This document shows positions 1,228-21,304 of a DNA stretch of 64,000 bases, piece after piece. Source of the DNA: Thermoplasmatota archaeon (GTDB lineage Archaea; Thermoplasmatota; Thermoplasmata; Thermoplasmatales; GCA-001856825); contig JAMCQR010000065.1 of assembly GCA_023379555.1 (NCBI GenBank), forward strand, positions 66,479-130,478, written 5' to 3'. Position numbers and translations under genes: made by a program. The notes under the pieces are model-generated. The model had not been told where the DNA came from, did no database searches, and worked only from the letters and a program-made list of their open reading frames with translations. Each line of letters begins with the position of its first letter. Within the stretch, counting starts at the first letter, position 1.

Positions 1228-2352
1228 ATGGAGATAAGTAAAATAGAAATATTTACTGGAACCGTTCATTTCCTTGCACCCTTTAAAATTTCACTGGGTA
1301 CATCGGAATTCAGTGAGGATGTCATCGTGAAAATTTATGCGGATGATGGAATTTTTGGATTGGGCGAAGCTGCACCTGCAGCAAGAATCACAGGAGAGTC
1401 TCAGGAGACGATCCTAGGGGCATCTGTAAGCATCGCCCAAAATCTAATTGGCAATGATACTGACAGCATGAACGCCCTCCTTGACACAATTCAATCAACA
1501 ATCCTGAGGAACAGCGCAGCTAAGGCAGCATTTGATACAGCTCTTTATGATTTAGTTTCAAAGATGGCGGGGAAGCCACTGTATAGATACCTGGGAGGAT
1601 ACAGAGAAAGGGTACAATCAGACGTTACCATCGGGATCATGCCCTCCGCGGAAGCTGTGACGAAAGCACAAAGACTTCTCAACATGGGTGTTGGGATAGT
1701 GAAGATGAAGGTAGGAGACAAAATAGATGATGACCTGGAAAGAGTGAAGAAAGTGCGTGAAACTGTGGGTCAAAAAACAAAGATATTTATCGATGCAAAT
1801 CAGGCTTGGGAGCCCAAGTATGCAATATCCGCCATTAGGAAATTTGAAAAGTACGATATAGACCTTGTGGAACAGCCAGTCAAAGCCAGCGATGTGGATG
1901 GTCTGTCGTTCGTGAGAAAGAACGTCGATGTTCCAGTCATGGCAGATGAGGCAGTGCATACTCCAGAGGATGCCATTCGTATTGTGAAATCTGATGCCGC
2001 TGATATGATTAATATAAAATTGATGAAGGCAGGTGGAATATATAACGCAACGAAGATAGCCGCCATAAGCGAGGCAGCAGGGCTAAAAAATATGGTTGGT
2101 TGCATGATGGAAGGAGCCGTCGGAATTGCGGCTGGCATTCACTTTGCACTTTCGTCAAAAAACGTGACCTTTGTCGATCTTGATTCAGATATTGATATGA
2201 AGAATACACTTACGGGCAGGCGGATGCTTCCGTTTGTCGAAGGCTTCAGGGAGCCTCTGGATGGTGCGGGCATAGGAATTGACGATGTGGACAGTAACGA
2301 AGTAAAACTCTTCAGGACAATCAAAAGGAGGTCCTCCAGCCGCTCCTTCTGA
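1228..2352 (+). CDS. Dipeptide epimerase of the enolase superfamily (L-Ala-D/L-Glu epimerase type)
   Basis: This is a complete muconate-lactonizing-subgroup enolase-superfamily enzyme of about 374 residues. Numbered from ATG 1228, it shows the K-x-K base (K159, K161 in VKMKVG), three metal ligands (D190 in DANQAW, E215 in EQP, D240 in ADE) and the second catalytic lysine in NIKLMKAGG (K264). These motifs are typical of dipeptide epimerases, which interconvert L-Ala-D-Glu and L-Ala-L-Glu during reuse of murein peptides; other dipeptides or acid sugars cannot be excluded by motif alone. The frame is open to TTG 1204 with an AAAGG 6 nt upstream; ATG 1219 and ATG 1228 are alternatives, and 1228 gives the usual family N-terminus. 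It opens a region rich in murein-handling genes, which supports the role. Confidence 0.82.
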   Translation: MEISKIEIFTGTVHFLAPFKISLGTSEFSEDVIVKIYADDGIFGLGEAAPAARITGESQETILGASVSIAQNLIGNDTDSMNALLDTIQSTILRNSAAKAAFDTALYDLVSKMAGKPLYRYLGGYRERVQSDVTIGIMPSAEAVTKAQRLLNMGVGIVKMKVGDKIDDDLERVKKVRETVGQKTKIFIDANQAWEPKYAISAIRKFEKYDIDLVEQPVKASDVDGLSFVRKNVDVPVMADEAVHTPEDAIRIVKSDAADMINIKLMKAGGIYNATKIAAISEAAGLKNMVGCMMEGAVGIAAGIHFALSSKNVTFVDLDSDIDMKNTLTGRRMLPFVEGFREPLDGAGIGIDDVDSNEVKLFRTIKRRSSSRSF

Positions 2353-2512
2353 CTGCATTTCCCACAATATACTGGTGAGAATCGGGTCAGAAATGTTAAG
2401 CGATATCCTAACGTTTCCGTAGATTATTGACATGAGCAAATGAAGCTTCATTTACTTGTTTGTTAATTAGTAATCTCGATCATTTTGAACCGAGATAGAA
2501 CCGCGGAGACAA

Positions 2513-3296
2513 ATATATAAGATGTGGGGCACTATTCCTCGTGTCTCACTTCTTCCTTCTCTTCTCCCTTTGATGTCGTGATTATTACGTATACCCTCTT
2601 ACCCAGATACTCCAGAGTAAATCCATTTTTGCTGATGTCCCCTGCTTGGTGACAGTTATTTACATAATATCCCCTATCTCGTCGTGCCTGAGAGCCAAAG
2701 AGTTGTTCGAGACGTATATCTTCCTGCCCAACTGTTGATAATAGGAATGATGTGTTTATAGTGTCTATAGACTAGCTTGTATCCTTCCATGTTAAGGACT
2801 GGTGAATGCCATATGTTTTTGATGAGGACATAAAGCTCAAACTTGAGGGAATCTGTAGGATTATTGGAGAGAAATACAAGCTTGAGTATTTGTGAAGAAG
2901 AGGGATGCATACGACAGGGCGGCGGAAATCCTCAGATCAACAGGTATAACTCTCGATTCCCTGAGGCTGGACAGGAACCACTCCACCCCATCTTATGTGG
3001 ATGCGCCTAAGGGGGCGAAGACGTTCTTGATACCCAGGAAGAACGGGATGCTCAACGGTTCCTTTGAATGGAAATCCATGATGAATGATTTCCGTCTGAA
3101 TACTGAACCCTACCTTGGGCAGTATCATCAGAGGAGCAATTCGGAATCTGGATTCTCTGCCGACAATAAGGTGCTCGGACAGAATGTAGCTCACAGGGGG
3201 GATGACAGGGATGACAGCGCAATATTCTGCACAGGCTTATGGCACGACTTATTCAATATTGGTCGATCATAGAATTTTGTCCCACATCTTATATAT
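2513..3296 (+). mobile_element. Defective insertion sequence with 16-bp perfect terminal inverted repeats
   Basis: ATATATAAGATGTGGG at 2513-2528 recurs as its exact reverse complement at 3281-3296, and the similarity continues with mismatches for about 13 more bases (2529-2541 against 3268-3280). Between them lies the C-terminal part of a DDE transposase on the plus strand. The element is only 784 bp, about half of what a complete IS of this kind needs, so an internal or 5' deletion is inferred. Near the left end the minus strand has a short open stretch (2640 down to a TAG near 2537) that reads KNGFTLEYLGKRVYVIITTS; I do not recognise it. No target-site duplication is evident. Confidence 0.75.
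2892..3272 (+). pseudogene. DDE transposase, C-terminal remnant
   Basis: These 126 codons match the end of archaeal DDE transposases: a GSFEWKSMMNDF segment (commonly GSWEWKRML in relatives), RSNSESGF carrying the expected catalytic glutamate, then DRDDSAIFCTGLWHDLFNIGR. The two catalytic aspartates and the N-terminal domain are missing. Just upstream another frame contains a short coherent stretch ending in TGA at about 2892, consistent with frameshift decay. GTG 2892 is only the first possible start and is unlikely to be a real one. It lies inside a pair of terminal inverted repeats. Confidence 0.8.
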
Positions 3297-3300
3297 AAAG
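3289..3300 (+). promoter_or_regulatory. TATA box supplied by the IS right end
   Basis: TTATATATAAAG overlaps the outer edge of the right terminal inverted repeat and is centred about 26 nt before ATG 3320. This is the spacing expected for a leaderless archaeal transcript of the glutamine amidotransferase gene. Confidence 0.55.
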
Positions 3301-3319: not shown

Positions 3320-4054
3320 ATGTGCAGGATGTTCATGCTAAAGGGCTCTTTCAGTAGCGATTTCGAGGGTATTTTTACCTCTCTTCAGGAAGTCGCCAGA
3401 GTTGACCCCCTTCTGGAAAATAAAGGTCCATCTGATGGGAGCCACAGTGATGGGTGGGGTTATCTGAACATAACCGATAGCAAAATAGAGTATGTGAAAT
3501 TTGGAACTCCCATTTTCCACCATGAGAAGCTGGATACAGGTGATGGAGTTATTATGTGCCATGCACGGAATGCAGCGCCTAATGAACCACTAGGAGTTAA
3601 CTTTGCCCACCCTCACTATTCCTCAAATGATAGGTTTGACTTCTTCCTTTCCCACAATGGGTGGTTTAATAAAGAAGGGATATCCAGTATACTTAAAAGG
3701 AATGATTCTGCCTACCATACAGACTCTGAGATGTTTCTCTATCTCGTTTCTTCTCTTGAAGGCGAACCCGAAAGTAGGATCAGTGAAGCAATTGAACTGG
3801 TCAAAGAGAGAGGGCTGATCAGGAGCAGCGCTAATCTCTTGTTCACTGTGATAGATAGGAAGAGCCAGGATTATGAGGCATTCTATTACTCGGATGCTGC
3901 CGCTAAATCAAACTATGGCACATACCAGAAATTATTCCTGGTAAGGAATGAAAGATGGTCTGGAGTTTTTTCTTCAAGCATAGTTAAGGCAAACTCATTT
4001 CATTTCACAGAAAATGCGGAGGAAGTGGAGAGAGGCAAGCTATTCATGTTGTAG
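3320..4054 (+). CDS. Class II glutamine amidotransferase domain protein (YafJ type)
   Basis: The sequence begins Met-Cys, so removal of Met exposes the N-terminal nucleophile Cys2 of class II glutamine amidotransferases. DGWGY (44-48), CHARNA (80-85), FAHPH (95-99) and HNGWF (112-116) are the conserved glutaminase-site motifs of the YafJ/EgtC-like stand-alone group. At 244 residues it contains only the Ntn-hydrolase domain, with no synthetase partner attached. The true substrate is unknown; it probably hydrolyses a gamma-glutamyl or amide bond. A TATA box about 26 nt upstream implies a leaderless start at the ATG. It sits among hydrolases in a region that appears devoted to breaking down amides and peptides, but a link is only inference. 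Confidence 0.8.
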   Translation: MCRMFMLKGSFSSDFEGIFTSLQEVARVDPLLENKGPSDGSHSDGWGYLNITDSKIEYVKFGTPIFHHEKLDTGDGVIMCHARNAAPNEPLGVNFAHPHYSSNDRFDFFLSHNGWFNKEGISSILKRNDSAYHTDSEMFLYLVSSLEGEPESRISEAIELVKERGLIRSSANLLFTVIDRKSQDYEAFYYSDAAAKSNYGTYQKLFLVRNERWSGVFSSSIVKANSFHFTENAEEVERGKLFML

Positions 4055-4339: not shown

Positions 4340-5614
4340 ATGTACAGTCAAAAGGAGAACGGATTCAATGTTTCAACGTTCAAAGGAAGCGAGGTAGAGA
4401 TTGGAGAGAAGCATGGGAGATTGCTGGGAAAGGAAATTGAGAAAGTGATAGAAAGATTCTCTTTTGCTCTCACGAATGACTACGGAAAGGACTGGCAATG
4501 GTTTAGGGATTTTTCTGTTTCAAATTTCAGTGAACGCCTGGATGAGAGAATTAAATCTGAAATGAATGCGATCCCGGCGTCATCAGCGAAACATAATGGA
4601 ACGAGTTTCAAGTTTGAAGATTTGCTGACGCTGAATTGCATAGCGGAGATTGATAGTTATTTCTCAGCCCACGAAAAATCTGCAGTAGATGGAAGATGCT
4701 CTTCGTTCATTGCGAATGGGAAATATACTATGGATGGCGATTATATACTTGGTCACACTACTTGGTGGAGATATTATTTAGCAAATAGTTTTAAACACTT
4801 CTTTATCTTCAAACCAGAAAGTGGAATACCATTTGCAATGCAGTCGGCCCCCGGTTTTCTCTTCAGTTTCACTGACTTTTACTACAATAAGAGCGGCATC
4901 GCGATTTCTGAAACTACACTTGATGGAATCCATACTTACAATGCGGGGGGTACTCCACTATTCCAGAGGCTCAGGTTAGCGATTCAGCACTCTAGTACTG
5001 TAGAAGACGCCGTATACCACATCACCAAAGATAATACGGGTGCATACCCAAACGATTATCTCATAGGGTCAATGGATGGGATTGCATTATTGGAACTTGG
5101 AACTTTTAATTACTCTTTGATGAAGAGGAAAGAGGGTTTTTTTGTTTCCAGCAATAGGGTGCAATTTGACAATCTGTATTCAGAATGCACGATCAATTAC
5201 GACACGCTAAACGATTCAGATACATCACGATTCTTGAGACTGAACGAACTTGTCTCATCTGGAAAACTGGATAATGAGTCGGCAAAAAGAATTCTTTCGG
5301 ATCATTATGATTCTTACCGGCGGGAGAACAGACCTGGAAAGAACACTATTTGTGGCCATAGGGAAACGGAACCCCTCAGGGACACATTTGACAAGCGTCC
5401 CGCATTCTTTACCACTGGATCAATAGATGGGAAAATAGTTACGGGTAAAGGGGCAGTCTCAGGGTCATCCACACTGAAGTGGGGTAAACCTTGCGGTGCG
5501 CAATTCTCCTCTGAGGAATTCCTATCCAGCCACCCTGAATACGAGTGGTTAAGAGGGCATCTGGAAGATATAAGTCCAGGTGCGTGGTATCAGTTTGATC
5601 ACGGCTGGGAATAA
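4340..5614 (+). CDS. Ntn-hydrolase of the C45 acyltransferase / phospholipase B-like group
   Basis: The 424-residue protein has the signature of autoprocessed C45-type Ntn hydrolases: Cys120 in DGRCSSFIA, followed by a Gly-Asp turn and LGHTTWW, where relatives have GHN-x-D-W. Cleavage before Cys120 would free the nucleophile and give a light chain of about 119 residues. ETTLDG (about 195-200), FVSSNRVQF and the late NTICGH segment also fit the C45 and phospholipase B-like families. Members cleave or transfer acyl groups on amides (penicillin acyltransferase, bile-salt hydrolase, acid ceramidase relatives). No signal peptide is visible. The substrate is unknown; the setting suggests N-acyl amino acids or peptides. 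Confidence 0.7.
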   Translation: MYSQKENGFNVSTFKGSEVEIGEKHGRLLGKEIEKVIERFSFALTNDYGKDWQWFRDFSVSNFSERLDERIKSEMNAIPASSAKHNGTSFKFEDLLTLNCIAEIDSYFSAHEKSAVDGRCSSFIANGKYTMDGDYILGHTTWWRYYLANSFKHFFIFKPESGIPFAMQSAPGFLFSFTDFYYNKSGIAISETTLDGIHTYNAGGTPLFQRLRLAIQHSSTVEDAVYHITKDNTGAYPNDYLIGSMDGIALLELGTFNYSLMKRKEGFFVSSNRVQFDNLYSECTINYDTLNDSDTSRFLRLNELVSSGKLDNESAKRILSDHYDSYRRENRPGKNTICGHRETEPLRDTFDKRPAFFTTGSIDGKIVTGKGAVSGSSTLKWGKPCGAQFSSEEFLSSHPEYEWLRGHLEDISPGAWYQFDHGWE

Positions 5615-5720: not shown

Positions 5721-7361
5721 TCAATCCAAAGTCTGTACAGTCAAATTCGATTGAAATTTCGCACTGTGTAAAATTTCATTTTTAGCCACCTCCATTTCAC
5801 TATCTGTGGCGAGGTCAAGCCCTGTATTAAGGTTACGTGAATATTTTGGGAAAGCACTGGAGGATATTTGAACCCTGATTCTGTGTCCCTTTCCAAACAC
5901 GTGGCCTGTTTTCCACATATCTACCTCCAGTTTGTATATTTGACCTGCCTCAAAGAAATCAATGCGTTCCATACCATTACGGTACCTTCCCCTGACCATC
6001 CCATCACAGAGTCTCTGTGCATATCCGCCTGGCCAGACGTCGAGGAGCATGACCATAAAATCGGTGTCTCTTGCATTAGTTTTCACATACAGATTGGCAC
6101 GAACGTCTCCGAGAACTGCTATATCATTTTCCAGAATACCTGATGTATAAACGAGAACATCATCCCTCCTCTCGACTGATGAGTAATCATCGGGCCCACC
6201 GATCTGAGAAGAGGTTGGCTCAGTTATGAATGGTGTTGGGTTTGAAGGGTCGTAAACATAGGAGTCCTTTCCCCACTTTATCTCTTCTATGCTTCGGACA
6301 AGAACGCCATCACCGAATCTGCTATTGGCTTTTCCTCCACTTGACAGGAAGAATTTTCTCTGTTTTCCTCTAATATAGGGCCAATCATCGAGATCTAACC
6401 ATTTATTTTCTCCCATCAGGAATACCTTCACTATCCTCCCTCTCCTTTTACCACTACTCGAAAGGAATTTATGGAACCAGTTAACCTCGATCCCCTCAAG
6501 ATCGATTATTTCCTTCGAACCGAATTTAATTAAATCCGTGGATATCGAAGAATTCACGGAGTGCCCCCATGGTCCAATGATAAGACCCTGATTCTCCCGC
6601 GAGAAAGCGGTCGCTGAGTGATGCCTCATTCCTTCATAATTCAAGAATGTCCCTACCTGCTCGTCATCATACCAGCCAGAGATGTGAAGAACAGGCAAGT
6701 CTATAAAGCTAAACCTTCTTTGGTAACATATTCTGTTCCAGTAATGGTCTAGAGTTTGATGTTTCAGGTCCTCCTTCCAGTCTTCAAAATCCATACCGAG
6801 TTTTGATGGCATATCTTTTAGTGGAAGAGTCTTGTAAACATTTTCCCAGTCTATTCCATCTGTGCTCTTCAGAGTCCTGCCACTTACAATGTACCGCCAA
6901 GAAATGTGCATTGGATCGTGTACTCCAGTTGGGCTTTCCACAAATGGATCTGACGGAGAAACTATGGAAATCATTGCTTTTAAATTAGGGGGCCGCATCA
7001 AAGCCGCAAGCCATTGTATTCTCGCAGAATAGGAAGCACCAAAGGTTCCTATCCTCCCGTCTGACCAGCTCTGTTTCCCAGCCCACTCAATTAAATCGTA
7101 TCCGTCGGTGCCTTCATTGAAATAGGGACGAAAAATTCCATCAGAATCTCCTCGCCCCCTAACGTCAAAATTAAGAAACGCGAAACCATTGCTTGCGAAG
7201 AGACGGGCAGACTTCCTAAATCTCTCGTCGTCTCTTCCGTACGGGGTTCGAAAAACAATGACGGGAAAGCGTCCCTTCTTTTCGGGAGTATAAAGGTCTC
7301 CCACAAGATCAATTCCATCCCTCATCTTCACCGAAATGTTTCTTTTCACTGTAAAATTCAT
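5721..7361 (-). CDS. CocE/NonD family hydrolase (peptidase S15 type)
   Basis: This is a 546-residue alpha/beta hydrolase with the CocE/X-Pro dipeptidyl-peptidase layout. Strand PVIVFRTPYGR (33-43) provides the oxyanion tyrosine; the nucleophile is Ser110 in GTFGASYS; Asp232 in SGWYDDEQ and His267 in GPWGHS complete the triad. The C-terminal 230 residues form the usual jelly-roll domain (RANLYVKT, HRIRVQISSSAFP). Related enzymes cleave X-Pro dipeptides, cocaine esters or acylated beta-lactams. No signal peptide is present. Its ATG overlaps the end of a small upstream frame by 4 nt. Peptide or acyl-amide cleavage is the reasonable expectation; the exact substrate is not predictable. Confidence 0.85.
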   Translation of the reverse strand: MNFTVKRNISVKMRDGIDLVGDLYTPEKKGRFPVIVFRTPYGRDDERFRKSARLFASNGFAFLNFDVRGRGDSDGIFRPYFNEGTDGYDLIEWAGKQSWSDGRIGTFGASYSARIQWLAALMRPPNLKAMISIVSPSDPFVESPTGVHDPMHISWRYIVSGRTLKSTDGIDWENVYKTLPLKDMPSKLGMDFEDWKEDLKHQTLDHYWNRICYQRRFSFIDLPVLHISGWYDDEQVGTFLNYEGMRHHSATAFSRENQGLIIGPWGHSVNSSISTDLIKFGSKEIIDLEGIEVNWFHKFLSSSGKRRGRIVKVFLMGENKWLDLDDWPYIRGKQRKFFLSSGGKANSRFGDGVLVRSIEEIKWGKDSYVYDPSNPTPFITEPTSSQIGGPDDYSSVERRDDVLVYTSGILENDIAVLGDVRANLYVKTNARDTDFMVMLLDVWPGGYAQRLCDGMVRGRYRNGMERIDFFEAGQIYKLEVDMWKTGHVFGKGHRIRVQISSSAFPKYSRNLNTGLDLATDSEMEVAKNEILHSAKFQSNLTVQTLD

Positions 7362-7531: not shown

Positions 7532-7591
7532 TGTTCCCCTTGCCCAAACATAGTTATTTACAGTTTTACATAAAATTATAGTTAAACACAT

Positions 7592-9072
7592 AACCCGTCA
7601 CACCTTATGAATTTGTTCCCTAGAAATTTGCCAGGAGCTGATTCTGCAACGGGAGGCCTTGACGAAAAGCTGCTAAACAGAATTGATGCTATATATTTCA
7701 GGAGTTCCCCAGAGCCAATGAACATTCTCGATTCCCCCCCTATTTGCGCTTTTCCAGATGTGTCCACCTGACTTAGGTCAAGGATATATCCGGGAGATAC
7801 ACCAGTGATCTCCTCAATTCGTTAGACCTCTTTTGAGTCGTACAGGAACCATGCGGCTTAAAGTTGTCCATTTTGGATATTTTTGTATTTGCTGGTTTCA
7901 CTGTACTTACTTTCTCTTTGAAGGAGATTATCTCCTCATACCTTGAATTTTCATGGCAGTCCGATATGAGATATCATTCAGTGGACAGATTCTCGACCCA
8001 TTCCTACGAATTTGCTAGTATTATTCATAATTTCAGGCCTGTTGAACGACAATAGCCTCATGGGTTTGATGTTTTTGGAGAGGTTATTTATCTGTGAACC
8101 CTGTTATCACTTTTTCAACGCTGAGCTGACTAAGTTTTTAGACGGTCTACTTAATCCTTTGACCCTCAGTATTCACTGGTTAAGACCTTGAATATTTCCG
8201 TCCGAACCTTCCCAGCATCTTCCTTAAGTGCGTCATTGAGTATTTTATACTATATACCTCTCCTTTATGAGAGGGAACACTTCCCTTCTGTGCCAGTCAT
8301 GCCTCCCCTCCACAATCTTCGCCAACGATTCTCTCTGCTTCACTGTCAACCTTGAAGGCTCCCCTCGTCTATCTTGGCATGAGAGGGTCAAATCCTTCCC
8401 AGTTCCGTTTGCGCCCGATATGTAACCATGCTTCTTCATGATGCCTACTGCATCTGCAGTACTCTCATCCCAGTTCCGCTGGTATGTGAACTCTATAAAA
8501 TTCAGTCTCTTCAGAACTTTTGCATTCTTTTCCAGAGTTCTTGTATTTTTTCAACTTCCATTAATGGGGTCTACTCACCTACTGGATTTACCTCTCCCCC
8601 TTTCCAAGATTTAGCATAACGGTATAATCTAAATAGCCACGTTTTAAACTGGAAATTAAAAGGAAATTTGGAGTTACTGATTAAGAATCTATAAAATTAG
8701 AATCTCGTGATTATAATGGAGTTAAGGTTAACTGATACTGCGACCACTATTCCACCCAGCCCGTCAGCTTCGTATTTCTCATTAGCTTCATGGTATATAA
8801 GATGGTAGGTGCTGTGGGATTGAAGACTATCTCACTCCGCTCCTTCCCTTTGGATCATCCCTTTAACTTTTCAAGGTCGGTCCGTCTTTATTAATGCATA
8901 CTCAGTGCAATGGAGATGACCAATTTGCAAAGATCCCAATTCGGTTGGCGAATTGCATTAGACTTAGATGGGACAGAGAGTCGCGAGGAAATTGGAACCT
9001 GACAATAGTTCGAAGACTCATCAATGGAGAGTGAGCGCGTCAAGGATTAATACTTATTCAAATTGGGATATT
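7592..9072. other. Gene-poor stretch with decayed coding remnants
   Basis: About 1.5 kb without an intact recognisable gene. The minus strand holds an IS630-like transposase remnant (8245-8561) and a further short open piece just downstream of it (reading KILNDALKEDAGKVRTEIF, ending near 8171). The plus strand has short open frames at 7609-7773 and 7864-8055 that lack recognisable motifs. The pattern fits an old landing site of mobile DNA in decay. Confidence 0.5.
8245..8561 (-). pseudogene. IS630-type transposase, N-terminal helix-turn-helix remnant, frameshifted
   Basis: Starting at ATG 8561, MEVEK runs into a six-T homopolymer at 8546-8551 (plus strand); shifting frame there gives a continuous peptide containing NAKVLKRLNFIEFTYQRNWD, then EPSRLTVKQRESLAKIVEG and WHRREVFPLIKERY before TAA at 8245. 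This is the paired helix-turn-helix and linker arrangement found at the N-terminus of IS630/Tc1-type transposases, including the GRPSRLT-like hinge (here GEPSRLT). The DDE catalytic domain is absent downstream. Loss of the catalytic half plus the homopolymer frameshift make this a clear pseudogene. Confidence 0.6.
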
Positions 9073-10146: not shown

Positions 10147-10971
10147 TTTCTCTATCTCCTCCATTGCCTTTTCTATGTCATACTTGTTTCTGCGAAGTAT
10201 TTCATCTGCTTGATCCTCTCCCATGTTGAAACGGGACGAAATGATTTTTAAGGCTCTTGCCCTTAGTTTGGAGTTGTAATAGGATTTCATGTGCGTCATG
10301 TAATTGCCATCGGTCCTTCCAAGGGATACTGCAAGGGTCGTACTTATAATATTTAGGGTCATTTTTTGTGCTGTCCCTGCCTTCATTCGTGTCGAACCCT
10401 GGATGACTTCCGGTCCCGTCTTAAGGAGTATGCAATCTTCTGCAGCCTGTTCTAAGGGGGAAGGCGAATTGTTCAATATTGCCACTGTATAACATCCAAG
10501 AGATCTGGCATGCTTGATAGCTGAAATGACAAATGGTGCCTTTCCGGATGCAGATATTCCTATGACTACATCATTGTTTGAAATTCTTTTTCTCGAAAGG
10601 GCAGTTACTGCAGACCTGGTATTGTCTTCTGCCCCCTCTATAGACCTGGTGAGTGCCTTTATCCCCCCTGCAACGATAAAATCAAAGTAATTCTTCCCCA
10701 TCCCGTAGGTAGGTTCCATCTCGATGGCATCCAGTGCACCCAATCTCCCGCTGGTTCCTGAACCTACATATAGCAATCTTCCACCACTATTCATTCTTTC
10801 TAGGCATCTTTCAATTACCAAGGTTATTTGGGCTCTGGCTCTGCCAACTGCTGAAAATGCAACTTTATCCTCTTTGTGAATTATGCTCACTATGTCGTTC
10901 ACATTAAGAGAAGAAATATTTGAAGTCCTTTCATTGATATCTTCCGTTCCTTTATCTTTTATGTCCCTCAT
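10135..10971 (-). CDS. murQ: N-acetylmuramic acid 6-phosphate etherase
   Basis: A SIS-domain protein of 278 residues with the MurQ signature throughout: GSGTSGRLG (70-78), DAIEMEPTYG with Glu84, IEGAED with Glu112/115, SASGKAPF (140-147) and GSTRMKAGTAQK (192-203). The two glutamates correspond to the acid/base pair of E. coli MurQ, which eliminates D-lactate from MurNAc-6-P to give GlcNAc-6-P. The C-terminal helical segment is slightly shorter than in E. coli (298 residues). It lies 41 nt after nagA, which takes up its product, in an apparent amidase-nagA-murQ transcription unit; a TATA-like TAATATTAGT also lies in that gap region. An animal GCKR-type regulator is unlikely because the catalytic residues are kept. 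MurNAc is not a component of archaeal walls, so the substrate must be foreign. Confidence 0.92.
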   Translation of the reverse strand: MRDIKDKGTEDINERTSNISSLNVNDIVSIIHKEDKVAFSAVGRARAQITLVIERCLERMNSGGRLLYVGSGTSGRLGALDAIEMEPTYGMGKNYFDFIVAGGIKALTRSIEGAEDNTRSAVTALSRKRISNNDVVIGISASGKAPFVISAIKHARSLGCYTVAILNNSPSPLEQAAEDCILLKTGPEVIQGSTRMKAGTAQKMTLNIISTTLAVSLGRTDGNYMTHMKSYYNSKLRARALKIISSRFNMGEDQADEILRRNKYDIEKAMEEIEKSMN

Positions 10972-13343: not shown

Positions 13344-13621
13344 TCCATCATTAGAACAAGTGAAAATATTTCTTATAGCTTTCTGTCCCTGATCTTGAGT
13401 CAGGTTATTGTAGTAATGTCTGACAATGATTATTTCACAGTTTTCTAAATGACCCAGATTACCCCTTGTAACCGTCTGTTCCAAATTATAAAGTAAATAA
13501 CTCAATGAATTTAACGCTGCTCACAAAAAACTATACAGTTTTAAGGGTTGCACACCACCCGATACTGTTATCATTCCTTATAATGTTCACTCTCCTGTGA
13601 TGCCTTAGAATATTGTAAAAG

Positions 13622-13655: not shown

Positions 13656-15080
13656 ATGAGAATGGGTAATTTTATCCAAGCTGGTATAGAAGGGAAAGAC
13701 AGAGATAGGACCAAACGGTTTCTCTCTACGGTGAAACCTTTCTCAATCGTACTGCTTTCTAGGGATTTTGACGACCTTCAAGATTTAAAAGCCCTGCTGA
13801 AGTGGATAAGGAGACTTTACAGGATTGAACTAGGAATTGACGAGCCCTTCATTGCAGTTGACCAGGAAGGGGGAAATGTTGCGCGGATACGGGAAATTGA
13901 CTATCTACCCAGTAATTTTGCTATGGGCGTTATGGGAATTGATACCTACTCCAGATATTCTGGCTTAATTGCCGGATATCAGTTGATGAATCTTGGAATA
14001 AGGTGGAACCTTGCACCAGTACTGGACACTGCGTCAAACGTCGATAATCATATTGTCATGGAGCGTTCATTTGGGCAATTAGTTGACCTTGTTGGAAAAT
14101 TGGGTTTGTCGTATATAGAAGGGTTGCAGGGCATGGGAGTTGCTGCAACCGCGAAACACTTCCCGGGACACGGGTACGTATTAGAAGATTCTCACGAGAA
14201 ATTACCTCATGATCATCGGGAAATAAATTCAGTCTTTAATGGTGCACTTCCTTTCAAACTTGCCGCCAAGAATGGCGTTAGAGCGACCATGGCCTCACAT
14301 ATAGTCTATGATGCTATTGATCCGGATCTTCCGGCTTCTCTGTCGTCCAAAGTCTATGAAATATTGAGAAAAGACTTCGGGTTCGAGGGACTGGCCATCA
14401 CAGATTCACTTGACATGAAAGCGATCTCTTCCAATTTCTCGGTAAGGGAGATTTCCGGACTAGTCGCTAAGGGTGGACCAGACGTGATAGAATGCGTTGA
14501 TATGGATATGGCGAGAGAATTTTTTGAAGAACTCAATAAAAAGACTATACACCAGCTGCAGAATAGAACAAGGAGGATAGAGAATCTCATTCCAGAAAGA
14601 AAGTTTAAATTTTCGCCACCTTCAGAAGTAATGAATTGGATTTCTGCTGGCGGTGTGAGATGGTTGAGAAGAAAAAATCTATCTCCTGAAAGAAGTTTGA
14701 CCCTTATCTTTTTAAATTCAACTTTTGTTGCCGAAAAATCATGGCCCTTTAAACTTCGCTCGCTAATAGAGGATAGAATAAAACAATTGGACATTAACTT
14801 AAGAGTGACTACACTTGATAGTCATAGGCCAATAAGGAACGATCAGATTATAATTATCGGTAAGAATTTACACCTTGGGGAAAAATGGCAAATAATCGGA
14901 AGAATATGTGAAGGGAAGGATTGCGTCTTCCTATCCACGGGAATGCCGGTAGATTCCGGGCTGCTGGATAAGAGGATAGGGTACATTTACTCAGGCGGGG
15001 AAAAATATGAAAGCATCATAGCCGCGATCTTCGTTATTCTTGGATTTTTCGATCCATTTGTGGGTACGTCACAGTGCTAA
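13656..15080 (+). CDS. nagZ: Beta-N-acetylglucosaminidase, glycoside hydrolase family 3 (NagZ type)
   Basis: The first 330 residues form the GH3 barrel: AVDQEGG (67-73), LAPVLD (119-124), KHFPGHG (167-173) followed by DSH (178-180), and ITDSLDM with the nucleophile Asp250. The KHFPGHG-x4-DSH loop is specific to the NagZ group, whose His (here His180) acts as general acid and which removes GlcNAc from MurNAc-containing fragments. A C-terminal domain of about 140 residues (to 474) resembles the extra domain of Bacillus-type NagZ rather than the short E. coli form. There is no signal peptide, so it should work on imported material in the cytoplasm. It ends with a 4-bp overlap with the convergent sugar-kinase gene and diverges from the amidase. 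Confidence 0.92.
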   Translation: MRMGNFIQAGIEGKDRDRTKRFLSTVKPFSIVLLSRDFDDLQDLKALLKWIRRLYRIELGIDEPFIAVDQEGGNVARIREIDYLPSNFAMGVMGIDTYSRYSGLIAGYQLMNLGIRWNLAPVLDTASNVDNHIVMERSFGQLVDLVGKLGLSYIEGLQGMGVAATAKHFPGHGYVLEDSHEKLPHDHREINSVFNGALPFKLAAKNGVRATMASHIVYDAIDPDLPASLSSKVYEILRKDFGFEGLAITDSLDMKAISSNFSVREISGLVAKGGPDVIECVDMDMAREFFEELNKKTIHQLQNRTRRIENLIPERKFKFSPPSEVMNWISAGGVRWLRRKNLSPERSLTLIFLNSTFVAEKSWPFKLRSLIEDRIKQLDINLRVTTLDSHRPIRNDQIIIIGKNLHLGEKWQIIGRICEGKDCVFLSTGMPVDSGLLDKRIGYIYSGGEKYESIIAAIFVILGFFDPFVGTSQC

Positions 15081-16099
15081 TCTATGAGTAGGTACCGTTT
15101 TTTTTCTCTCTCCGGTAGCGAGAATACATAATCGTCCAAAACCTTTCTGAGCCCTTCTATGTCGTACCCAGAAAGATAGACTCCCTCCCTCCTATAGGTA
15201 AGAACAATTGAACCCAGAACTGCCTCATATCCGTATATGGGATCAATAAATTTTCTGTTCCCGCTTGAGTCTCTTATTTTTGATTTCACTTTTTCCCAGT
15301 ACCATTCTCCTGACCGAAATACGCCTCCGTAGCCACTGAATTCTAGCTGTTCTGGCCTGCCAAGTCTATTGTAAATTGATATTGCGGTCTTTGCGGTTTC
15401 CTCTGATGCATCTTCCATAATAGTTTTAGCAAGGGAATCACCCTTTAGTGATTCTCGAGATGTGAACCTAGCAATTGATGCAATATCCCTGATGTCTATT
15501 TTCTTTCCGTAGACCTTATTTATTATGTCTCTCGGATCACTTAGAGAATAATGTTCCCTGATAACCCCCATTAGACTACTCTCAACGAATTCTGACCGTC
15601 CATCAAATAGCTTCACTACCTCCTGAATAGTCCGTCTCCCTATGTAGAAGGCCCCTCCCTCATCGTCAAGGAACCAACCCCATCCGGAGGAACGGACTAC
15701 TTTCTCTTCGACTCTACCGTAACCTACCATACCTGTTCCTGGAGCAACAACTATTCCGTTCCCATCTGGAAACCTAGAAAAGAAACCAGCTTCTCCATCA
15801 TTAAAATAAGAGATCTTCCTGTTGGGAAAGAGAGAGGAAAGAATCTCAATCATCTCGGATGATGACTTCTCAGAGTCCTTCATACCTGCAATGGCAAAGG
15901 TATACTCGTCTGCATCTTTTATACCGGAATTGTGCAATGATTTCAAGACGGAATTCTTAAGATTCCTCTTAAAACCTGTTAGTCCCACATTCCTTAAATT
16001 TGTTGAGCCGGATATTCCGACGCCTAGAATTTCTGAATTTTGGTTGTAAACAACCGAAATTGTTTTGGTAGCCCCTCCGTCTACAGAAAGAAAATACAT
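15077..16099 (-). CDS. BadF/BadG-type N-acetylglucosamine / N-acetylmuramic acid kinase
   Basis: A 340-residue ASKHA-fold kinase of the BadF/BadG/BcrA/BcrD family: DGGATKT (7-13) is the first phosphate-binding loop, Asp101 in YFNDGEAGF the catalytic base, and APGTGMVGYG (119-128) the second loop; GWGWFLDDEGGAFYIG is typical of GlcNAc kinases. Human NAGK and clostridial MurK belong here, and MurK phosphorylates both GlcNAc and MurNAc at O6. That double activity would feed both MurQ and NagA encoded nearby. It lies 40 nt downstream of the peptide-binding protein on the same strand and overlaps the convergent nagZ by 4 bp. Glucosamine kinase activity is an alternative. Confidence 0.85.
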   Translation of the reverse strand: MYFLSVDGGATKTISVVYNQNSEILGVGISGSTNLRNVGLTGFKRNLKNSVLKSLHNSGIKDADEYTFAIAGMKDSEKSSSEMIEILSSLFPNRKISYFNDGEAGFFSRFPDGNGIVVAPGTGMVGYGRVEEKVVRSSGWGWFLDDEGGAFYIGRRTIQEVVKLFDGRSEFVESSLMGVIREHYSLSDPRDIINKVYGKKIDIRDIASIARFTSRESLKGDSLAKTIMEDASEETAKTAISIYNRLGRPEQLEFSGYGGVFRSGEWYWEKVKSKIRDSSGNRKFIDPIYGYEAVLGSIVLTYRREGVYLSGYDIEGLRKVLDDYVFSLPEREKKRYLLID

Positions 16100-16139: not shown

Positions 16140-17978
16140 TTAAGTGCCTGGAGGTGGCGGCGTTTCTTCTTCCTTTTTTGGTGCGCCTTCTTTTTGTTGC
16201 TTGCTCCTCTTATACAGGAGATATACAGGAACGACAATGATAACTAGTACAATTACCGCTATCACATAGTAGAGGTAGGCAGGGAATGGTGATGTAGTAG
16301 TTGGCGGTGCGCCTGGAGCATATATCTTGAGGAGATTAATCATACCTACAGGGGAATGATTCTGATCGAATCCTGCTATCTTTTGATCGTTGAAAGCATA
16401 GTAATTCCCTATGTCACCAATAAGCACCATTGGTACTTGAACAGCAACAATTTTCTGTACTTGGAACAGGTCACTCATGAAGGCTGCCTTGTTCGATACT
16501 TCTGTGAATGACTGATTGAGCAGACTACTAACGGTAGCATTGCTCCAGTGCGTTATAAATCCGTCCCAGAAACTGCTTGGATCAAATAGATCCCAGAGGA
16601 CATACCACGGATTAGAGAAGGATGGGGTGGCGCCGAAATAGCTTAGGTCAGGAGTGGCCAGGGAGACGTTGCTCTCAAACATGTCGGTGGCCCATGGACC
16701 GAACGGTACGACTGATTCAGTAACAGAGAATCCTATCAGTGAAAGATCGTTTGTTATGAATGATGCCGCCGTCATCCAGTCAGAGATTGGTGGTTCAACT
16801 ATTGTCAACTTGACTATTGTACCATTCGGGTATGTCCAAAACCCACTGCTGCCCAGTGTAAGGCCAGCTTTCTCGAATGAGGCAGTGGCCTGACTCGTGT
16901 TGTAGTGATATTCTGGAAGCCCTGATGCCCACCACGAATAATTTGTCCACGGTTCCCCTCCGAATGACCCCTGTCCCCCGATTCCATCCTCTGCCTTCTG
17001 CATTATCTGAGTTTTGTTTATTGCGTATGCCAGACCTTGCCTGAAGTACGTATTGTTGAATGGTGCAACCCTCGTATTGTCCCAAAGGTAGAAAGCCCAA
17101 GGCATCTTGTAGATATAGTTCACCATGTTGCTTGTTGTTTTCAGTGCGTTGTAATCGCTGATAGCAGGATATTCGGCATCAATACTCCCACTCTTAAGGG
17201 ACAGCGTCATGTCAGAGGTTGATTTGAATGGTTCGATTATCAGGTTCTGGATATGTGGAGTACCCTTCCAAAAATGCGCGTTCGCAACAAAATCCATCGC
17301 AGATTCACTCACGGACGTAAGGATAAATGGTCCCGCCTGGAGTTGGTGCCCTATGTTCATGTTAGTGTAACTTCCTATATCTGATATGTTAGAGTATAAG
17401 GAGTTCCAAGAGTAGGGAATTATGGTCTGTATTCCAATGTAAGTTAGCATCATTTGAGATGGGCTGTTGGTTACAAACCTTACTTCGTAATTGTTAATCG
17501 CCGTAACGCTTACTATGTATGAATCAACGCCATTGACATCGAGTGTTGAGTTTGCCTTCAACACGTCAAAGGTGAAAACAACGTCTTGTGCTGTTATCGG
17601 ACCTGCAACCTGTGTCCCGTTCATCCAGGTAGCGTTTTTCACAAGATTGAATGTATACATTGTTCCGTTGGGACTTACTGTGTAGTTGTTTGCCAGCCAC
17701 GGGAGAAGTGTTCCGTTCGATGTAGAGTAGAGCAGTCCAGTTGGATACATTATTGCAGTTGCTTCACCTGCTAGGTTCAGTGCGGTCAAAGGGTTAAGAT
17801 CAGTCACCGGTGTGGACACAGGTGTCCCCCATATAAATGTCCCAGTCGAGGAAGACGCTGCGTATCCACCTGAAAAGAATAGGGTGAATGACATCAAGAC
17901 CAGTACAGTGACAATGGCAACCGTAAGTGTTTTTCTGCTTCTTTTTTCCTTGGTTTCTTCAAAATGTGAATCAACCAT
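16140..17978 (-). CDS. ABC transporter substrate-binding protein, family 5 (peptide type), membrane-anchored
   Basis: The 612-residue protein has an N-terminal hydrophobic segment (about 18-38), a family-5 binding fold (NNYTVSPNGTMYTFNLVKNA, DVVFTFDVLKANS, RQGLAYAINK) and a C-terminal membrane helix (about 568-590) after a proline-threonine linker, ending in a basic and Pro/Glu-rich tail. Archaeal binding proteins are often tethered this way. Bacterial relatives bind oligopeptides, murein tripeptide (MppA) or sugars. No permease or ATPase genes follow; the next gene on the strand is the sugar kinase 40 nt away. The pairing suggests muropeptide or amino-sugar capture, with shared or distant permeases. 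Peptide uptake in general is the plain alternative. Confidence 0.82.
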   Translation of the reverse strand: MVDSHFEETKEKRSRKTLTVAIVTVLVLMSFTLFFSGGYAASSSTGTFIWGTPVSTPVTDLNPLTALNLAGEATAIMYPTGLLYSTSNGTLLPWLANNYTVSPNGTMYTFNLVKNATWMNGTQVAGPITAQDVVFTFDVLKANSTLDVNGVDSYIVSVTAINNYEVRFVTNSPSQMMLTYIGIQTIIPYSWNSLYSNISDIGSYTNMNIGHQLQAGPFILTSVSESAMDFVANAHFWKGTPHIQNLIIEPFKSTSDMTLSLKSGSIDAEYPAISDYNALKTTSNMVNYIYKMPWAFYLWDNTRVAPFNNTYFRQGLAYAINKTQIMQKAEDGIGGQGSFGGEPWTNYSWWASGLPEYHYNTSQATASFEKAGLTLGSSGFWTYPNGTIVKLTIVEPPISDWMTAASFITNDLSLIGFSVTESVVPFGPWATDMFESNVSLATPDLSYFGATPSFSNPWYVLWDLFDPSSFWDGFITHWSNATVSSLLNQSFTEVSNKAAFMSDLFQVQKIVAVQVPMVLIGDIGNYYAFNDQKIAGFDQNHSPVGMINLLKIYAPGAPPTTTSPFPAYLYYVIAVIVLVIIVVPVYLLYKRSKQQKEGAPKKEEETPPPPGT

Positions 17979-18170: not shown

Positions 18171-19145
18171 ATGAACGGAAGATCAGTTGTTCTATTCGCT
18201 GTTTTTTCTATCCTCATTCTCCTTATGCTAGTTGCTTGGACGTCTCAAGCTCAGACATCCTTGAACTTGAAGAATGATAGCAAAAAAAGTGCCATTGTAT
18301 GGATGGGTCTTGAGATTACCGGAGAGAATATCTCGGCAGACCTTTCTGCAATAAGGGAACACAAAGATGACTTGACAGGAGTATCATTTGAGCACTATAT
18401 GATTGACTCTCAGGGAGATCTGGAACCAATCTTCCCACTCACAAATGTAACTTCTGCCATACAATCAGATGGTCTTCAAACCTTCCCGATGATCATAAGC
18501 GTGAATCTGAATGATATAGAATATCTCATCAATCATCCAAATCATTTCATTCAGGCAGCCGTATCACAAGCCGTGGCAGAAAGATTCACTGGATTCAATG
18601 TTGATTTCGAGCCCACGAAAGCGGCAAACAGTACTGTTGCAATGGAATACTGTAGGTTCTTGACAGATTTTGCGGATGCTCTCCATTCTGAAGGAAAGAT
18701 ACTGACAGTGGATGTGACCACATGGAACCAATTTTGGAATTTCAGTGCCCTTGGGAACACGACCACTGACATCCTCTATGATATGGGCACATATGCATCT
18801 CCATCGATCGACTTTGCCTCCGCACTAGAATATGCGGCAATGGAGATTCCATTAAGCAAATTGGGAATAGGGTTAATTACTGTAAACGTTAATAATGGTT
18901 CTATTCTTGCAAACTACTCAGTTTCAGCGAGATTTCAGTTTCTCGAATCTTACAATGTGACAAATGTTGCCGTCTGGGATATGCCTCTTAATTCTTATTG
19001 GTGGGTATACCTTTCTAATTTCCTCGGAGAAAAAAATAACCACATTATTAATAAAAATCTTATTATTATAATAATCACTATCCTCGTGGCCGCCGGGGTT
19101 TCTTTCCTCTTCATCTTCAAGAGAAAAAGAAACCGGATTTCATGA
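18171..19145 (+). CDS. Secreted, membrane-anchored GH18-like glycosidase
   Basis: The 324-residue product has an N-terminal signal (about 6-24), a TIM-barrel-like body and a C-terminal membrane helix followed by KRKRNRIS. GFNVDFEPT (141-149) corresponds to the GH18 active-site strand (DGxDxDxE), with Glu147 as the likely acid; YDMGTYA and VAVWDMPLNSYWW fit the later barrel strands. Only one of the usual upstream aspartates is present (N and V occupy other positions), so activity is not certain. GH18 members cut chitin, chitobiose units or peptidoglycan (for example SleL-type spore enzymes). It diverges from the binding-protein gene, so the two could share a regulatory region. An extracellular role on GlcNAc polymers is inferred. 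Confidence 0.65.
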   Translation: MNGRSVVLFAVFSILILLMLVAWTSQAQTSLNLKNDSKKSAIVWMGLEITGENISADLSAIREHKDDLTGVSFEHYMIDSQGDLEPIFPLTNVTSAIQSDGLQTFPMIISVNLNDIEYLINHPNHFIQAAVSQAVAERFTGFNVDFEPTKAANSTVAMEYCRFLTDFADALHSEGKILTVDVTTWNQFWNFSALGNTTTDILYDMGTYASPSIDFASALEYAAMEIPLSKLGIGLITVNVNNGSILANYSVSARFQFLESYNVTNVAVWDMPLNSYWWVYLSNFLGEKNNHIINKNLIIIIITILVAAGVSFLFIFKRKRNRIS

Positions 19146-19203: not shown

Positions 19204-19878
19204 CTACTCAGGGAACCGTCCAATCTTCTCAAAAATTCTCATCAGCGACCGAGAATAATCTGAACCGTCAAATAGGTCATTCTCCGTTACCCTTGAATAA
19301 TGTCCGTTTGCGTGTATAATCTTTCCACGACCCATGTATATCGCCACGTGGCCCTTAAAGAAGATAAGATCACCTGGCAGGGAACTGTCGAAGTCTTTTA
19401 CAGTTATCGAAGCATCTCGCTGCTCATTTGAATTTCTGGGAATCTCTATTCCCGAAAACCTGAAAAGTCTCTGCGTGAAACCAGAGCAGTCAAAACCAAA
19501 ATCAGAGGTTCCTCCCCACAGATAAGGTACCCCCATGAATCTTCTTGCTAATTTGACCGGCGAAAAATGCCTGTTCAGTGTTACCAGGTACCTCTCTGGT
19601 ATCATAAATCTTGTCACATCATCTTCACTAATAAGGGACCCAAATGGTAGGGCCATTATTCTATTCCTGTGTTGCTTTGAGAGCTTATAGACTCTCTCTG
19701 ACTCATTGCCTAGGAGGGATCTTTTCATATAGCCAACAACGCCATCCTTTCCCCTAACCTTTGCAAATTCCCCTACTTCTTCTAAGATCTCTACTGTCTC
19801 TCCATATACCAGTTGAGAATCCCTTTCGGAGTTCGTTGAAGGTTTAGTCCTGATATCGGCTACACTTGTTATGACCAT
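19204..19878 (-). CDS. NlpC/P60 endopeptidase with SH3b domain (gamma-D-Glu-DAP peptidase type)
   Basis: The 225 residues begin with a bacterial SH3-like domain (VADIRTKPSTNSE, GVVGYMKRSLL), a short middle SH3-like piece, and a C-terminal NlpC/P60 catalytic domain with Cys132 in GFDCSGFTQ, His178 in FFKGHVAIYMG and His190 in IIHANG. This is the domain order of YkfC-type enzymes, which cut between D-Glu and DAP in free murein peptides with an N-terminal L-Ala. No signal peptide is present, as expected for recycling enzymes. Codon 1 could be GTG 19881, but ATG 19878 with GGTG upstream is likelier. It diverges from diaminopimelate decarboxylase, which would use one of its products. Confidence 0.85.
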   Translation of the reverse strand: MVITSVADIRTKPSTNSERDSQLVYGETVEILEEVGEFAKVRGKDGVVGYMKRSLLGNESERVYKLSKQHRNRIMALPFGSLISEDDVTRFMIPERYLVTLNRHFSPVKLARRFMGVPYLWGGTSDFGFDCSGFTQRLFRFSGIEIPRNSNEQRDASITVKDFDSSLPGDLIFFKGHVAIYMGRGKIIHANGHYSRVTENDLFDGSDYSRSLMRIFEKIGRFPE

Positions 19879-20044
19879 CACCTTTTTTTATGCGATTCTA
19901 TCACAAAAACATTACTTCTGGTTCACCGTTTCTTGGAACCTTTTATTTCAAGCTCGAGAGGGTGCACTAAGAAGTGAAACATTCTAGTAAAGAACATTGA
20001 TATTGCGATTTAGCATACCGTTACATGGAGATTGAGGGGTTTGC

Positions 20045-21304
20045 ATGGATTTCCTGAGTTATTTTGATGTGGAGCACAACACACTCTACATGGATGGGAA
20101 GAAAGTCATTGAAATAGCGGAAAGGTACGGAACACCCCTTATATTATATTCAAAGAAGAGGATACTTGAGAATATAACGGCAATTAGAAATGCATTTCAA
20201 TCAAGTAGCCATTCCATCCATTTTGCAGTGAAGTCGAATTTCAATCCTTTCATACTTTCATTAATGAAGGAAAACGGAGTGGGAGCTGACGTATCCAACT
20301 ATAACGAGGCAATACTTGCACTAAGAGCCGGAATTAAACCCGACGATATTATTGCGTCTCCGAACAATATGACAAGGGAGGAACTTCTAAAGATCATCAA
20401 CCTTGGAATTGCAGTGAATTTTGACGATGTCTCCCAGATGGACCTGGTTAAGGATCATCTTCCGCACACGGTCTCCTTCAGAATTAATCCTGGAATCGGA
20501 AAAGGGGAGTTCACAGGCATTACGACGGGTGGAAAGGGAAGTAAATTTGGAATTCCGGTATCATCCGCTTTAAGCGCATATCGTAAAGCAAAAAATTCTG
20601 GGGCTAGGAGGTTCGGAATTCATATGATGGCCGGATCTAATATCCTTGATCCTAGTTTTTTTAAGGCATCTACAGGTATTTTCTTCGAAGTTGCAGATAA
20701 GATATCCAGCGAGGGCGATGTGGAATTTGAGTTCCTCGATGTCGGAGGTGGATTTGGGGTGCCCTATAGGGATTCAGATGAGAGGCTTGACCTTAACACT
20801 GTAGCAGCAAATATAATGGAGAACTTCAATAAGTACCAAATAAATGGGATGTTTAAAGGTTCTAAACTTATCCTTGAACCTGGAAGATTTCTTGTTGCTG
20901 ACGCAGGGGTACTTCTTGCAAAAGTGACAAACATAAAAAAATATGACAAATTGATCATAGGAACCGATGTCAGTATGAATACTCTCATAAGGTCCCCACT
21001 ATATGGAGCAACCCATCCTGTTCTGGTTGTCGATAAAGTAGGCGAGAAACCAGTGGTAAACGCTGATATTGTAGGTCAGGTTTGCGAGAATACTGATGTC
21101 CTTCGGAAAGACGTAATGCTTCCCAAATTGGAATATGGGGACCTACTGGCTTTTCTCAATGCCGGGGCTTACGTCACGTCGATGGCTTCCAACTACAATA
21201 TGATTCCAAGGCCGAAGGAAATCATGTTGGACGGTAATGATGAAATAATGTTGCGGAGAGAAGACACTTTAGACGATATGCTTTCGCAGTTCATCTTTCC
21301 TTGA
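20045..21304 (+). CDS. lysA: Diaminopimelate decarboxylase
   Basis: A fold-III PLP enzyme of 419 residues. HFAVKSNFNP carries the PLP lysine, GIHMMAGSN the stacking histidine in the form usual for archaeal LysA, DVGGGFGVPY the glycine-rich phosphate loop, EPGRFLVADAG the EPGR motif, VCENTDVL the cysteine loop and GAYVTSMASNYN the substrate tyrosine. It converts meso-DAP to L-lysine and CO2. GAGGGG lies 5 nt before the ATG. No other lysine-biosynthesis gene is nearby; instead it stands back to back with an NlpC/P60 peptidase that can release DAP-containing products. It may serve lysine production from scavenged DAP as well as normal synthesis. Carboxynorspermidine or ornithine decarboxylase is less likely. 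Confidence 0.85.
   Translation: MDFLSYFDVEHNTLYMDGKKVIEIAERYGTPLILYSKKRILENITAIRNAFQSSSHSIHFAVKSNFNPFILSLMKENGVGADVSNYNEAILALRAGIKPDDIIASPNNMTREELLKIINLGIAVNFDDVSQMDLVKDHLPHTVSFRINPGIGKGEFTGITTGGKGSKFGIPVSSALSAYRKAKNSGARRFGIHMMAGSNILDPSFFKASTGIFFEVADKISSEGDVEFEFLDVGGGFGVPYRDSDERLDLNTVAANIMENFNKYQINGMFKGSKLILEPGRFLVADAGVLLAKVTNIKKYDKLIIGTDVSMNTLIRSPLYGATHPVLVVDKVGEKPVVNADIVGQVCENTDVLRKDVMLPKLEYGDLLAFLNAGAYVTSMASNYNMIPRPKEIMLDGNDEIMLRREDTLDDMLSQFIFP

Follow-up and report, generated by a model that had tools for sequence, protein, structure and literature searches.

The 64,000-nucleotide window analysed here (contig JAMCQR010000065.1, positions 66,479 to 130,478, of the Thermoplasmatota archaeon assembly GCA_023379555.1) contains, between 1.2 and 21.3 kb, an island of genes for protein families of peptidoglycan breakdown. 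Judged from the sequences, this Thermoplasmatales island is very probably a feeding system by which fragments of bacterial cell walls are imported and then degraded in the cytoplasm. This reading draws on the genes themselves, their clustering in related genomes, conserved catalytic residues, the co-occurrence of the families and a shared clade of the N-acetylmuramic acid (MurNAc) 6-phosphate etherase MurQ. An initial annotation had proposed such a feeding system; the clustering in relatives, together with the lack of any sign of a chimera, lends support to that proposal. Until now, muropeptide catabolism has been described mainly in bacteria.

All genes listed in the initial annotation were found in place within 20 kb, and GH3, the epimerase, the kinase and the S12 protein gave the family matches expected. 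MurQ (10135..10971, minus strand) scored 310.4 bits against NF003915 (cut-off 168), and its best match in the PDB was the MurNAc-6-phosphate etherase 4lzj (4e-56). In an alignment of 26 rows, including E. coli and three other bacteria, Glu 84 was kept in 25 rows, the remaining row having a gap, and Glu 115 in all 26; we take these to be the catalytic residues E83 and E114 of E. coli. Here and below, catalytic residues were read from aligned columns of the island families, with the window and its near-copy, genome G001, among the rows; regular-expression motif counts gave misses that the aligned columns did not confirm, and the aligned columns were used. The roles of the residues and motifs in MurQ, NagZ, NlpC/P60, S12, the epimerase, NagA and glycoside hydrolase family 18 (GH18) are general background.

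On the sugar side, the N-acetylglucosamine (GlcNAc) 6-phosphate deacetylase NagA (11013..12095, minus strand) scored 232.7 bits against TIGR00221 (cut-off 225.65), and six of the seven positions viewed were invariant in 17/17 rows while the seventh varies; MurQ, NagA and LysA each scored above a curated family cut-off. The NagZ-type beta-N-acetylglucosaminidase of glycoside hydrolase family 3 (GH3; 13656..15080, plus strand; PF00933, 4.5e-51) had as its best PDB match the GH3 beta-N-acetylglucosaminidase 6k5j (1.1e-42), with Bacillus YbbD/NagZ lower (8.9e-32), and the KH and D-x-H motifs as well as the nucleophile Asp were each present in 19/19 rows. The S12 serine hydrolase (8968..10146, plus strand; PF00144, 3.7e-36), proposed to be an AmiE-like MurNAc-L-Ala amidase, has the SxxK motif in 18/19 rows (one gap) and the Tyr and the His-Thr-Gly motif in 19/19; its best model was PBP4B, below the cut-off, and its best PDB matches were FmtA (5.9e-8) and an alkaline D-peptidase (1e-7). 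The BadF-type amino-sugar kinase (15077..16099, minus strand; PF01869, 9.1e-32), which resembles MurK and NagK, matched in the PDB 2e2n (2.7e-27), presumably the Sulfolobus hexokinase, and the MurNAc/GlcNAc kinase 8zo3 (3.4e-25), presumably clostridial MurK; it scored 77.2 bits against NF046058, below the cut-off of 370.

On the peptide side, the YkfB-like L-Ala-D/L-Glu (dipeptide) epimerase (1204..2352, plus strand) had its best PDB match in the L-Ala-D/L-Glu epimerase 1jpm (5e-75), which we take to be B. subtilis YkfB; the alignment begins at residue 10, and the start at 1228 chosen in the initial annotation is likewise in frame and agrees with the alignments. Its K/K/D/E/D/K residues and the D-x-D pair were present in 19/19 rows. 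The YkfC-like SH3-NlpC/P60 peptidase (19204..19881, minus strand; PF00877, 1.5e-23; PF18348, 4e-11; PF08239) matched best, over its NlpC part, 3h41 (4.1e-18), presumably B. cereus YkfC, and retained Cys/His/His in 19/19 rows. The diaminopimelate (DAP) decarboxylase LysA (20045..21304, plus strand) scored 354.7 bits against TIGR01048 (cut-off 297.9).

The gene set is more complete than the initial annotation recognised: NamZ, a transporter, an S13 carboxypeptidase, AnmK and the GlcD/GlcF pair are present in G001 or in relatives. G001 is the genome nearest to the window, with 92% of sampled 31-mers common to both, and 14 of the 18 window proteins compared fall inside the G001 stretch, each 99-100% identical there. 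The 10 kb to the left of the window in G001 encode GlcF, GlcD, NamZ, DppB, DppC, DppD, DppF, a GNAT protein and S13; these genes end about 0.1 kb before the window start (coordinate offset), and the G001 island spans about 31 kb from GlcF to LysA. One representative of each extra family was scanned for domains, which identified the exo-muramidase NamZ (PF07075, 1.3e-65; PF20732, 1.2e-35), AnmK (PF03702, 7.6e-79) and the S13 D-Ala-D-Ala carboxypeptidase (PF02113, 5.3e-27); the SIS protein resembles GlmS/GlmD and was below all cut-offs. Opp/Dpp permeases and ATPases, as well as the GlcD/GlcF oxidase pair, recur in the islands of relatives. By family, genes for import, glycosidase, amidase, kinase, etherase, deacetylase, peptidase and epimerase are clustered, with the S12 protein taken as the amidase, and with the transporter, NamZ and S13 to the left of the window in G001.

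Neighbourhoods of up to 20 kb around MurQ were read in 19 genomes, G001 among them, omitting the second MurQ locus of G321; stretches that end at contig ends may depress the counts. S12 was present around MurQ in 17 of these genomes, NagA in 16, NlpC/P60 and NamZ in 13 each, BadF and SIS in 12 each, the epimerase and GH3 in 11 each, S13 in eight, a family 5 oligopeptide-binding protein (SBP5), a PKD-like surface protein and AnmK in seven each, LysA in four and GH18 in two. Apart from GH18, these make up 13 core families, and the 18 Thermoplasmata genomes besides G001, which belong to four families, had between 4 and 12 of these 13 near MurQ. This clustering exceeds what chance would give, although the Fisher values calculated for it take no account of how closely the genomes are related and were not counted as proof. 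The genes that the initial annotation had proposed to look for as a set in related Thermoplasmata lie together in relatives rather than scattered. Apart from G001, the relatives' island proteins are 27-69% identical to those of the window, and gene order is shuffled. Two of the genomes with the island (G082 and G193) are single-contig genomes that are 99% complete. Moreover, the MurQ of G039 is identical to P0049, a protein named in NCBI as from Picrophilus oshimae and located on a contig of 1,545,895 bases; Picrophilus belongs to the Thermoplasmatales, the order shared by G039 and G001. In G039, a stretch of some 16 kb contains BadF, SIS, NagA, MurQ, S13, LysA, NlpC/P60, S12, GH3, the epimerase and NamZ.

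The families also occur together at the level of genomes. MurQ was scored as present at E <= 1e-20, a threshold at which 6 of 14 control genomes matched, all of them bacteria; at E 0.001, 13 of 14 matched, archaea included, because SIS-domain proteins are picked up. Among 400 genomes of the class, of which 23 have MurQ, NlpC/P60 was present in 23/23 MurQ genomes compared with 15/377 others, and NagZ-type GH3 in 21/23 compared with 4/377. Six of the 15 NlpC/P60 matches in genomes lacking MurQ lie in open frames of more than 1,000 residues, and two of the four MurQ-less GH3 genomes (G277 and G302) have NlpC/P60 on the GH3 contig, no more than 3 kb away. For 35 chosen genomes, 23 with MurQ and 12 without, we scored NamZ (19/23 compared with 0/12), AnmK (14/23 compared with 0/12) and DapB (8/23, five over the cut-off, compared with 0/12), together with LysA and DapF. 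Finally, nine island families have correlated pairwise distances (r 0.45-0.94), and none of 500 permutations gave as high a value for any of the 36 pairs; this is expected of long joint inheritance, although genome relatedness alone could also yield it.

Of 15 genomes of the window's family, six have MurQ; in the class it was detected in 23 of 400 genomes and 12 of 104 genera, 22 of the 23 being over the cut-off, and in the phylum in 14 of 389 genomes, of which three do not belong to the class. L126, L127 and L128 (G572, G418 and G426) are high-scoring MurQ proteins from Thermoplasmatota of other classes. The phylogeny of MurQ called for in the initial annotation placed the 31 rows of a 54-row tree that had been grouped beforehand as island-type archaeal MurQ in one clade (support 100/96). 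Besides the window, this clade comprises 22 rows from genomes that represent four families, and eight database proteins, of which four have archaeal names and one is identical to a G013 row; P0116 is its sister. The ten named bacterial rows fall outside, as do six further proteins. The tree used 15 of the 120 MurQ homologs listed and omitted the fragment L026 (G079). The best bacterial MurQ match among plasmid records (best 40 of 121) was that of Thermomicrobium roseum, which suggests a type of donor rather than the donor itself. A scan of genome contigs for MurQ gave one Archangium fragment only.

Additional MurQ proteins were noted in the same analysis. Second MurQ copies in six genomes (L010-L015; G071, G321, G383, G023, G087 and G055) form a clade of their own (six rows, 100/100), and the one in G321 has genes for SBP5, Opp/Dpp and a GH18-like protein as neighbours. 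P0002, a MurQ labelled as from a Conexivisphaerales archaeon, groups among the rows of the window's family beside G012 and G007, and because of this placement its contig may be mis-binned or mislabelled.

Export was judged by a simple hydropathy rule rather than by a signal-peptide predictor. An N-terminal hydrophobic segment was present in SBP5 (14/14), GH18 (4/4), the PKD surface protein (10/11), DppB (12/13) and DppC (12/12), and a C-terminal one in SBP5 (14/14) and the PKD surface protein (9/11). By the same rule, no N-terminal segment was detected in MurQ (22 proteins), NagA (17), GH3 (19), S12 (19), NamZ (17), S13 (12), NlpC/P60 (19), the epimerase (19), BadF (18), LysA (13) or AnmK (9), and because these enzymes lack such segments, degradation would take place in the cytoplasm after import. 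The part of the initial annotation that placed wall breakdown outside the cell is kept as a proposal for the surface GH18 and Cys/His proteins, while most of the enzymes appear cytoplasmic. The SBP5 gene (16140..17978, minus strand; PF00496, 5.1e-54) lies beside Opp/Dpp permease genes in relatives.

The surface GH18 glycosidase candidate (18171..19145, plus strand) had no match in Pfam, and a search of a large database returned 13 proteins, its own copy included. Its predicted structure (predicted local distance difference test score, pLDDT, 72) resembles those of GH18 enzymes, with chitinases as the best matches and the cortex-lytic SleL following closely, and shows a putative TIM barrel with a D-x-E catalytic pair; the predicted fold thus agrees with the GH18-like assignment made initially. 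The second surface protein (12192..13505, minus strand), which has a PKD-like domain, had been called a Cys/His amidase. It has surface segments, and Cys, His and Asp are invariant in all 54 family members aligned, out of 87, whereas a firm family assignment was not obtained: the family has no precomputed Pfam domain, the similarity to NlpC/P60 is weak (Pfam E 0.076; hhalign 15% over 24 columns) and the predicted fold has a low pLDDT of 43. The search that gave the 87 proteins, own copy included, contained five organism-named ones, all archaeal. The true start of the gene is likely near 13343, the database copy P0134 being 54 residues shorter. We consider this family a candidate new peptidoglycan hydrolase.

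Assigning each step from family and residues, we propose that membrane-anchored GH18 and Cys/His proteins would cut the bacterial wall outside the cell, and that the anchored binding protein and the neighbouring Opp/Dpp ATP-binding cassette (ABC) transporter would import the muropeptides. Inside, the S13 carboxypeptidase would trim D-Ala, the S12 protein would release the peptide from MurNAc, and NagZ and NamZ would separate GlcNAc from MurNAc. The BadF kinase, joined by AnmK in some relatives, would phosphorylate the sugars, MurQ would take off D-lactate and NagA acetate; in relatives, the SIS protein may then deaminate glucosamine 6-phosphate and the GlcD/GlcF pair may oxidise D-lactate. On the peptide, NlpC/P60 would split gamma-D-Glu from DAP, the epimerase would convert L-Ala-D-Glu to L-Ala-L-Glu and LysA would turn DAP into lysine. 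Going beyond the island itself, and with the balance of probability only modestly on our side, we favour a wider scenario in which a group of acidophilic archaea that includes Picrophilus and does not synthesise peptidoglycan eats bacteria. The ancestor from which several Thermoplasmata families descend would have acquired an entire bacterial set for muropeptide catabolism, shifted the glycosidases and the amidase to the cytoplasm, where an ABC importer would supply them, and added surface hydrolases of its own; today these archaea would live in part on bacterial walls, consuming DAP, D-Glu, D-lactate and MurNAc.

Several observations weigh against the feeding-system reading. Four proteins miss strict equivalog cut-offs, namely MurQ (252.6 bits against TIGR00274; cut-off 302), GH3 (161 bits against the beta-N-acetylhexosaminidase model NF003740; cut-off 207), the epimerase (265.7 bits against NF041118; cut-off 500) and the kinase, which is also slightly closer to hexokinase than to the MurNAc/GlcNAc kinase; moreover, 0/400 class genomes passed the NF003740 cut-off, for which 10 of 14 controls matched and three passed. 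For the S12 protein, position and catalytic motif are what the proposed AmiE-like identity draws on. NamZ, the transporter, S13 and GlcD/GlcF lie outside the window and were seen only in G001 and relatives (a tblastn search of the window for NamZ, S13, AnmK, the SIS protein and the transporter gave two weak partial matches, which fall in different genes for an ATPase and SIS-domain protein). The G001 island contained neither AnmK nor the SIS protein, and a search of the entire G001 genome did not detect AnmK either. By hydropathy alone, export is indicated for the permeases and for the binding, GH18 and Cys/His proteins only. MurQ is patchy, 377 of the 400 class genomes being without it, and the 40 kb read in G039, the genome with the Picrophilus MurQ, contained none of these transporter or surface protein families. 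Finally, LysA was present in 23/23 MurQ genomes and also in 9/12 genomes without MurQ, and because of the latter LysA alone is non-specific; we accordingly no longer treat it as proof of feeding on DAP. Its place beside the NlpC/P60 gene in 8/23 MurQ genomes is what points to a possible catabolic role, and in four f14 genomes LysA lies beside DapB rather than NlpC/P60.

The same genes could in principle serve the breakdown of chitin or of other GlcNAc-containing glycans (fungal walls, N-glycans), with the MurQ-like and NamZ-like genes having come along. GH18, GH3, NagA and a GlcNAc-type kinase would fit this, and the GH18 model matches chitinases best; nonetheless, MurQ, NamZ, AnmK, the D-x-D dipeptide epimerase, the YkfC-like NlpC/P60 protein and S13, for which we know of no use in chitin breakdown, recur in the islands, and the active sites of MurQ, NlpC/P60 and the epimerase are kept, so that we regard a chitin-degrading island as improbable. 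Just as doubtful, in our estimate, is a weapon whose surface proteins lyse living bacteria, the inner enzymes being a secondary clean-up. In its favour, Strock et al. 2025 (PMC12352652) report that peptidoglycan hydrolases of archaea are able to kill bacteria and that homologs are prominent in Thermoplasmatota. Against it, hydropathy indicates no export signal for most of the island enzymes, which together make up a catabolic chain, and the candidate lytic proteins are present less regularly than other members, GH18 being found in 2/19 and the Cys/His protein in 7/19 stretches around MurQ.

Salvage of a wall polymer of the archaeon's own, akin to murein recycling, has in its favour that the same enzyme families recycle walls in bacteria. 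The initial annotation had held that such cells have no peptidoglycan, and no set of Mur ligases for wall synthesis was seen in the 23 MurQ genomes: 22 had a single Mur-ligase-domain match each and G087 had none (MraY, MurG and MurA were not searched), and the two matches checked were both FolC. DapF was found in 0/35 chosen genomes. Picrophilus has an S-layer, which is protein. Two Thermoplasmatales species without an S-layer show an unordered protein layer only (PMC12448462). We rejected recycling of an own wall as very improbable on these grounds. Least credible of all is an assembly chimera or bacterial contamination, which the bacterial type of the genes might evoke. A like island is present in 18 genomes besides G001, including two single-contig genomes and one that has the P. 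oshimae MurQ P0049. None of the ten named bacterial rows falls in the island MurQ clade, and on the right-hand side the island is followed by genes for archaeal L10, L1, Spt5 and other housekeeping proteins, which mark the contig as archaeal, as the initial annotation had also judged. A chimera was rejected for these reasons, and the feeding system remains the reading that we prefer.

The window contains further genes in or beside the island. A DUF218 protein (92..652, plus strand; PF02698, 9.5e-23) is a recurrent neighbour, present in 12 gene sets; these counts include the window and G001. A conserved protein that starts with Met-Cys (3320..4054, plus strand) occurs in seven sets; it matched no Pfam family, and the PDB offered no credible relative. 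A C45-family autoproteolytic acyltransferase/hydrolase (4340..5614, plus strand; NF040521, 115.2 bits, cut-off 85), possibly an amide hydrolase, occurs in five sets, and a CocE/S15-type hydrolase (5721..7361, minus strand; TIGR00976, 354.3 bits, cut-off 66.3) in eight. Between the latter and the S12 gene, positions 7362-8967 form 1.6 kb without an open reading frame of 90 amino acids, possibly a decayed insertion.

The nearest literature consists of Strock et al. 2025 (PMC12352652) and the Primer that accompanies it (PMC12356512). Strock et al. 2025 likewise describes archaea attacking the bacterial wall, and its authors leave scavenging open; it differs from the island in dealing with bacteria-killing Halogranum hydrolases, and a search of its text for terms gave no mention of MurQ, muropeptides or recycling. 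Judged from titles and the opening lines of abstracts, our literature search met no report of archaeal import or catabolism of muropeptides, in keeping with the initial statement that no description of an archaeal pathway this complete was known, although most subscription papers lay outside its coverage and absence from print is not proven. The island offers a concrete candidate answer to the question of killing or scavenging raised by Strock et al. 2025, and one that can be tested in the cultured genus Picrophilus. If the feeding-system reading is true, these archaea would be consumers of bacterial necromass or prey, the presence of NlpC/P60 genes in part of the Thermoplasmatota would be explained, and a multi-gene catabolic pathway would have been transferred between domains and re-located.

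Among bacteria, Bacillus subtilis has a murQ-murR-murP-amiE-nagZ-namZ cluster as well as ykfABCD, and it shares with the island the families of MurQ, S12 AmiE-type, GH3 NagZ, NamZ, L-Ala-D/L-Glu epimerase and NlpC/P60 proteins. Bacillus uses its NagZ, AmiE and NamZ outside the cell and takes up MurNAc through MurP, a protein of the phosphotransferase system (PTS). By contrast, the NagZ, S12 and NamZ proteins of the island are without an N-terminal hydrophobic segment, and an Opp/Dpp ABC transporter, a BadF kinase, S13 and LysA lie beside the island enzymes; no PTS was found among the identified recurrent island families, genes outside those families not having been annotated. The kinase is of the BadF type, like the MurNAc/GlcNAc kinase 8zo3. 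A second likeness is the Thermomicrobium roseum megaplasmid NC_011961.1 (L116), on which murQ, a BadF kinase, AnmK, a serine hydrolase, nagA, SIS and a substrate-binding protein lie in one stretch, and whose MurQ is 43% identical to that of the window. Thermomicrobium roseum differs in being a bacterium, in that its annotated beta-N-acetylhexosaminidase had no blastp match to the archaeal GH3, and in that no NlpC/P60, dipeptide epimerase or LysA is annotated in the 24.8 kb read. In total, the island would appear to work like bacterial muropeptide catabolism, from which it differs in the domain of its bearer, in a host with no sign of a peptidoglycan wall of its own, in a probable ABC import, in glycosidases and an amidase that are predicted to be cytoplasmic, and in its extra surface proteins.

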